From Dermatophagoides farinae (lineage: Eukaryota; Arthropoda; Arachnida; Sarcoptiformes; Pyroglyphidae): 64,000 nt of DNA. Positions 31,971 to 32,277 of the stretch are shown here, one piece after another (position 1 is the first letter of the stretch; the number at the start of each line of letters is the position of its first letter). The stretch covers positions 1,283,001 to 1,347,000 of the forward strand of contig NC_134684.1 of NCBI RefSeq assembly GCF_024713945.1, in the 5' to 3' direction. Under the pieces are notes generated by a model that saw only the letters and a program-made list of their open reading frames with translations, was not told the DNA's origin and searched no databases. The translations under genes and the position numbers were made by a program.

Positions 31971-32277
31971 CATTATGCTGTTTTCGTTGACGAGGATTTG
32001 CCTGTTTTCGACGTTTTGTTGTTGTTGTTGATGATGATTTCGATAATAATGGTGAAAAACATTGGTGCTGTTGTCGTTGTTGTTGTTGTTGATGATGATC
32101 CATTGATAATAATGATGATGGTTGATTATTATTCAAAGATGGCATCGATGATGATGATGATAAAAATCGATGACTAGGTGATATTGAATTTAATAGAAAA
32201 GGTGATGACGATGTTGGTGGCGATGATGATGATGATGATGAGCAATAGGAATCACAATGTGGAACTTGTGCCATCAT
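31971..32277 (-). CDS. First coding exon of a ZEB/zfh1-like zinc-finger repressor (NuRD-binding motif); partial
   Basis: The exon encodes 102 residues plus one base. It starts at ATG 32,277 (a second ATG follows at once; an in-frame TGA lies two codons upstream) and ends at a donor G|GTAGGT at 31,971/31,970, phase 1. The body is serine-, glutamine- and asparagine-rich, as in disordered parts of transcription factors. The last 16 residues are [16 protein letters not shown]. The RRKQxxP peptide near the N-terminus recruits the NuRD co-repressor in SALL, FOG, BCL11 and ZNF521 proteins, and KRRKQANPR is exactly the N-terminal form I know from vertebrate ZEB1/2, whose first coding exon I recall also ending just after it in phase 1. 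No zinc-finger exons are in the window; they should lie beyond the left edge. FOG (RRKQSNPRQ) is the main alternative. Family call moderately sure; coding status quite sure. Confidence 0.7.

Follow-up and report, generated by a model that had tools for sequence, protein, structure and literature searches.

The exon at positions 31971..32277 (reverse strand) of the window, the 64,000-nucleotide stretch of Dermatophagoides farinae DNA that we analysed (C8:1283001-1347000 in an assembly of 62,435,336 bases and 22 contigs), is very probably the first coding exon of the mite ZEB/zfh1 gene, with a probability of about 0.88 judged from sequence. We infer that it is spliced across 71 kb to the first of two acidic linker exons (E2 and E3), which would lead on to a finger and homeodomain body. 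So read, the gene appears to be a new member of the ZEB family, in which the design of exon 1 would be conserved between this chelicerate and vertebrates.

Exon 1 and its borders

The coding part of exon 1 spans 307 bases, made up of 102 stop-free codons, from MMAQ to the end of the motif, plus one G. A start codon opens a run of 87 mostly low-complexity residues, and the last 15 codons, K88-N102 (window 31972..32016, reverse strand), carry a NuRD-interaction motif (NIM) as defined in PMC11602157 (excerpt). Two codons before the first ATG stands an in-frame TGA, which makes this ATG the most likely start of the frame. The 3' border reads directly as AATG/GTAGGT, confirming the phase-1 end that had been proposed; the GTAGGT donor of intron 1 lies at window 31965..31970 (reverse strand).

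A protein search found exon 1 only once in its own genome (n = 1), and with a training set of other genes its codon score is +33.3 in its frame vs -39.0 and -20.7 in the two alternative frames. With 102 open codons, a single copy and a codon score that supports the frame, the NIM-bearing exon of the original prediction is real. Pfam had no match to exon 1 alone, and a PDB search with the motif peptide returned only chance matches to MyoD (E 5.8 and 8.7).

The exon had also been described as standing alone, with no zinc-finger exon to its left. The second statement holds: a C2H2 pattern scan of the left 31,970 bp gave zero matches on the exon's strand and a single low-complexity match on the opposite strand. 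The isolation of the exon is an effect of the window's edge, as finger exons lie about 55 kb beyond it.

A ZEB/zfh1 gene body on the same strand

A C2H2 scan, the frame list and AG/GT junctions define a ZEB/zfh1 gene body of seven exons at C8:1227627-1223966 (reverse strand). It lies on the same strand as exon 1, 87 kb downstream and outside the window, and its six introns measure 86, 85, 77, 172, 76 and 77 bp. The finger motifs of the spliced model, at residues 625, 720, 757 and 785 and at 1545, 1573 and 1601, form the two separate clusters of a ZEB/zfh1 protein, four N-terminal and three C-terminal; all seven were counted by eye, and a strict C2H2 pattern matched only three of them. As in ZEB/zfh1 proteins, a homeodomain sits between the clusters (around residue 1104) and a predicted CtBP-binding site, PLDLS, is present at residue 1362, with a related LNLS at 1391. 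The model protein ends SYSQHMNHRYSYCKPYRE. Pfam reported zf-C2H2 at 4.5e-18 and Homeodomain at 4.5e-13 for a preliminary model of 1,131 residues that lacked E2 and E3.

By sequence, this body is the sole ZEB/zfh1 gene found in the D. farinae assembly. A human ZEB1 C-terminal finger query matched the locus in four pieces at 87, 73, 71 and 68% identity, and no other place exceeded 52% among 124 matches (150 of 201 candidates scored). Finger arrays elsewhere match over longer but less identical stretches, the best E-value falling at C4:1380964 with 43% identity. A genome search with the mite homeodomain gave 5 matches, in which the runners-up to this locus reach 40% identity. The matches of a PDB search with the homeodomain part include the ZEB1 homeodomain 2e19 ('Transcription factor 8'), whose E-value of 1.2e-5 is much weaker than the 1.3e-10 of ISL-1. 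PolyA-type signals occur 336-363 bases past the ZEB stop codon.

Predicted linker exons and long first intron

Our first model joined exon 1 to the body by a single intron of 87,343 bp, which was replaced once the coding scan showed E2 and E3 inside it. This codon-usage scan was repeated with a training set free of ZEB exons. E2 (C8:1243599-1242901, reverse strand) has a codon score of +71.4 and 24% Asp+Glu, and E3 (C8:1240420-1239617, reverse strand) has a score of +115.7 and 19% Asp+Glu; both have AG/GT borders with phase 1 on both sides, and their other frames score negative, with 10-66 stops. Joined in phase, the ten coding exons encode 1,632 amino acids with no stop. However, E2 and E3 each begin and end in phase 1, so that the phases by themselves prove neither the order nor the inclusion of any of these exons. 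At the junction of exons 1 and 2 the model reads Asn followed by Val, with the Val codon split as G/TG. We presume that Val also comes right after the exon-1 junction in vertebrate ZEB; no printed source for the residues that follow the vertebrate junction was found in the literature.

The predicted introns 1-3 measure 71,371, 2,480 and 11,989 bp. Intron 1 fills window 1..31970 (reverse strand) and continues to C8:1243600, so that the giant first intron, foreseen at more than 32 kb, is borne out in the predicted gene, at 71,371 bp vs 76-172 bp for the introns of the body. Introns 1 and 3 hold an excess of open frames of at least 100 codons (56 vs 16 in the reversed control for intron 1, and 10 vs 2 for intron 3). 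We read this excess as driven by repeats, because no more than 7 segments of intron 1 exceed a codon score of 20 (vs 1 in the reversed control), a retrotransposon-like frame among them, although some small exons may have been missed. That frame, of 1,259 codons (C8:1276134-1272358, on the same strand as ZEB), is the best remaining coding-like frame of the intron, and was rejected as a host exon for its resemblance to a retrotransposon (Pfam Pol_BBD at 5.5e-10 in its first 329 codons). The other coding-like segments appear, where their letters were viewed, to be short and mostly Asp-rich repeats. The highest-scoring of them is a candidate small exon of 93 nt (window 2509..2601, reverse strand), Asp-rich and symmetric in phase 1-1, with a codon score of 28.7, against a best of 20.9 in the reversed control, and a weak donor, gtgtta. 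Should this exon be real, two introns would share the 71 kb. Rfam gave 0 matches in the 114 kb searched, which cover the window and neighbouring DNA.

Comparison with vertebrate ZEB genes and Drosophila zfh1

Vertebrate ZEB genes have a long first intron, and ZEB1 carries KRRKQANPR in its first coding exon. The same nine residues lie in the first coding exon of ZEB2 (PMC4505893, excerpt) and, given the inferred linkage to the body, in that of the mite gene. For human ZEB2, the exon, printed with its 24 residues, ends in AGGAAAAACG (AAC G/), which is phase 1 (PMC4505893, excerpt). In mouse Zeb1 a variant of the first intron is named c.58+181 (PMC3183090, excerpt), which places the end of coding exon 1 at base 58, again in phase 1. 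The expectation that motif and phase-1 junction are kept from mites to vertebrates therefore stands in so far as the phases match those of Zeb1 and ZEB2. It does not stand as a mark of ZEB: exon 1 of human BCL11B likewise ends in phase 1, as read from a printed fusion and residues (PMC4505893, excerpt), and the BCL11-like and SALL-like exons of the mite share the phase. Since the junction phase is common to other NIM families, it does not identify ZEB, and we dropped it as a ZEB-specific feature.

Vertebrate ZEB1 and ZEB2 also resemble the mite protein in having N- and C-terminal finger clusters, a homeodomain and PLDLS, and four CtBP sequences are listed in ZEB proteins (PMC8304685, excerpt). 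Several differences are evident. The motif starts at residue 88 in the mite vs 13 in ZEB2, the mite junction is three residues further from the motif, and the mite has Gln (Q97) where ZEB2 has R22. A very long acidic, low-complexity linker sets the mite protein apart from vertebrate ZEB1 and ZEB2. In addition, the third helix of the mite homeodomain looks canonical by eye (WFQNMR), whereas that of ZEB proteins is reported to have lost DNA binding (PMC8304685, excerpt).

Drosophila zfh1, like the mite gene, is an arthropod gene that encodes fingers and a homeodomain (PMC5919756, excerpt). The 3' UTR of the fly zfh1-long transcript has a miR-8 site (PMC5919756, excerpt), whereas the miR-8/miR-200 seed site, searched as CAGTATT, is absent from the 2 kb after the mite ZEB stop codon (C8:1223965-1221965, reverse strand). 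The literature matches listed for ZEB/zfh1 together with the motif, seen as titles and abstract openings, describe no arthropod ZEB that carries it.

Other NIM genes of the mite and the identity of exon 1

A genome scan for RRKQxxP, with a pattern written so as to admit some Ser codons too, gave 39 matches vs 90 for the backwards control, and RRKQxxP alone was rejected as evidence on that account. Among all 39 matches, one reads RRKQANP (exon 1) and two begin MSRRKQ. Base composition predicts about 5e-5 occurrences of KRRKQANPR in the whole genome, and an order-4 simulation of 15 Mb produced 0. RRKQ.NP arose twice in the same simulation, above the composition prediction, and so the shorter forms of the motif are not to be trusted. 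Another of the 39 matches, KKRRKQSKP at C8:4031291 (reverse strand), lies within a low-complexity frame of 638 residues.

The two MSRRKQ matches belong to a BCL11-like and a SALL-like gene, named from reading their finger sequences, with the NIM exons linked to the finger frames by strand and nearness only. The BCL11-like NIM exon, MSRRKQENPQPRKRLVN (C1:2335651, reverse strand), has a phase-1 GTAAGT donor, and a finger frame at C1:2300501-2304500 lies about 31.6 kb downstream. The SALL-like exon, which begins MSRRKQPRPKHY (C1:4306567, reverse strand), likewise has a phase-1 GTAAGT donor, and its finger frame (C1:4251501-4255500) is at most about 51 kb downstream; these figures are distances from NIM exon to finger frame, not intron lengths. 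Both genes thus resemble ZEB in placing the NIM in a phase-1 first coding exon, with finger frames tens of kilobases downstream, but differ in that the motif begins at residue 3 and in their finger arrays. By eye, no homeodomain was seen in the BCL11-like and SALL-like frames read.

These likenesses raise the question of whether exon 1 could come from another NIM family (SALL, BCL11 or FOG) or from an unrelated gene in the interval, which we regard as very unlikely. RRKQxxP and phase-1 first exons are common to BCL11 and SALL, and the excess of open frames in intron 1 would suit an unrelated gene. However, the genes of the two families compared in this genome, SALL-like and BCL11-like, own separate NIM exons elsewhere, and in place of their MSRRKQ starts exon 1 has an in-frame stop, then MMAQ, and KRRKQANPR only at residue 88 of a longer N-terminus. 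In the codon and frame scans, no other host gene came up between exon 1 and the ZEB body. A same-strand ZEB/zfh1 body downstream, joining in phase, with no rival host gene, thus upholds the ZEB assignment of the original prediction. That exon 1 is a chance open frame is less credible still, to the point that we give it almost no weight: low-complexity open frames are common in the region, and RRKQxxP alone is rarer than its backwards control, but the nine-residue ZEB match is itself expected so seldom, and exon 1 precedes the sole ZEB gene found, on the right strand, with start, donor and phase all fitting.

Proposed docking of NuRD and CtBP

If exon 1 opens the ZEB/zfh1 gene, repression by way of NuRD and CtBP is the most likely action of the encoded protein. 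Its two hands of zinc fingers would recognise E-box-type sites, the KRRKQANPR peptide would dock on RBBP4 of NuRD, and PLDLS would dock CtBP. Peptides of the NIM class bind RBBP4 (PMC11602157, excerpt), and ZEB proteins are described with a NIM, in which the ZEB2 change R22G loses NuRD (PMC8304685, excerpt). In Drosophila, zfh1 shows a genetic dependence on Mi-2, as loss or lowering of Mi-2 rescues Zfh1-induced neuroblast loss (PMC6379090, excerpt).

How well the mite peptide fits depends on the class with which it is compared. It has the RRKQxxP of the N-terminal class, as RRKQANP, though at residue 89; the start of the motif at residue 88, away from the extreme N-terminus, counts against the NuRD step. 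An internal NIM is said to need a basic eighth residue, RKxxxPxK/R (PMC11602157, excerpt), where the mite has Q97. The likely partner, in turn, is conserved at its named contacts: in the mite RBBP4-type gene, the best of 5 places matching its family, E231, N277, D318 and E319 are identical, 4 of the 4 contact residues named in PMC11602157 (excerpt), with residue numbers transferred ungapped from the 2xu7 ranges. On balance, the mite peptide probably binds NuRD.

Two further readings are compatible with the gene assignment. One is that exon 1 is the ZEB first exon but that its peptide recruits NuRD poorly and serves mainly as a nuclear localisation signal, which we consider rather unlikely. Q97 occupies the position of ZEB2 R22, the residue at which R22G loses NuRD (PMC8304685, excerpt), and KRRK, PRRK and PRCKRRK are named as nuclear localisation signals within the 24 ZEB2 residues (PMC4505893, excerpt). 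Against this, RRKQANP is retained to the letter while most of exon 1 is low complexity, and the RBBP4 contact residues are retained as well. FOG-1 likewise has Gln after NPR (NPRQ), which also speaks against poor recruitment. It does bind RBBP4, if weakly (ki 1200 nM; PMC11602157, excerpt). The other reading, to which we give slightly less than even odds, is that the gene has several alternative first exons, exon 1 among them, and that shorter ZEB transcripts, devoid of the NIM, start from E2, from E3 or at another place within the 71 kb. E2 contains an in-frame Met that could serve as such a start, and there are precedents in mouse Zeb1, where exons 1b-1f, which lie between exons 1 and 2, are alternative first exons (PMC3183090, excerpt), and in Drosophila zfh1, whose long and short isoforms start at different sites (PMC5919756, excerpt). 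In mouse embryonic ears, however, the 1b-1f transcripts were too low to quantify (PMC3183090, excerpt).

Evolutionary reading and neighbouring genes

For exon 1 as the start of the mite ZEB gene, the NIM, the phase, the finger clusters, the homeodomain and the CtBP site argue that NuRD docking through exon 1 would predate the split between arthropods and vertebrates. The 71 kb intron, which persists in a compact genome, would be a place to seek conserved regulation, and a gene model begun at the finger exons would leave out the docking peptide. A broader and doubtful hypothesis unites a phase-1 first exon that codes for a NIM and the very long, regulatory first intron behind it in one ancient module of at least three zinc-finger repressor families (ZEB, BCL11 and SALL), shared from mites to mammals and kept here in a genome of about 62 Mb, where the six body introns of the gene are shorter than 200 bp; the choice of promoter would then decide whether NuRD docks.

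To the right of exon 1, the window holds four further frames identified by eye. They read as a fatty-acid-hydroxylase/alkylglycerol monooxygenase-like protein (44899-46174, reverse strand), a malonyl-CoA acyltransferase (52054-53208, forward strand), a coronin-like WD40 protein (53713-55660, reverse strand) and a stonin/mu-homology-like protein (61661-63408, reverse strand).
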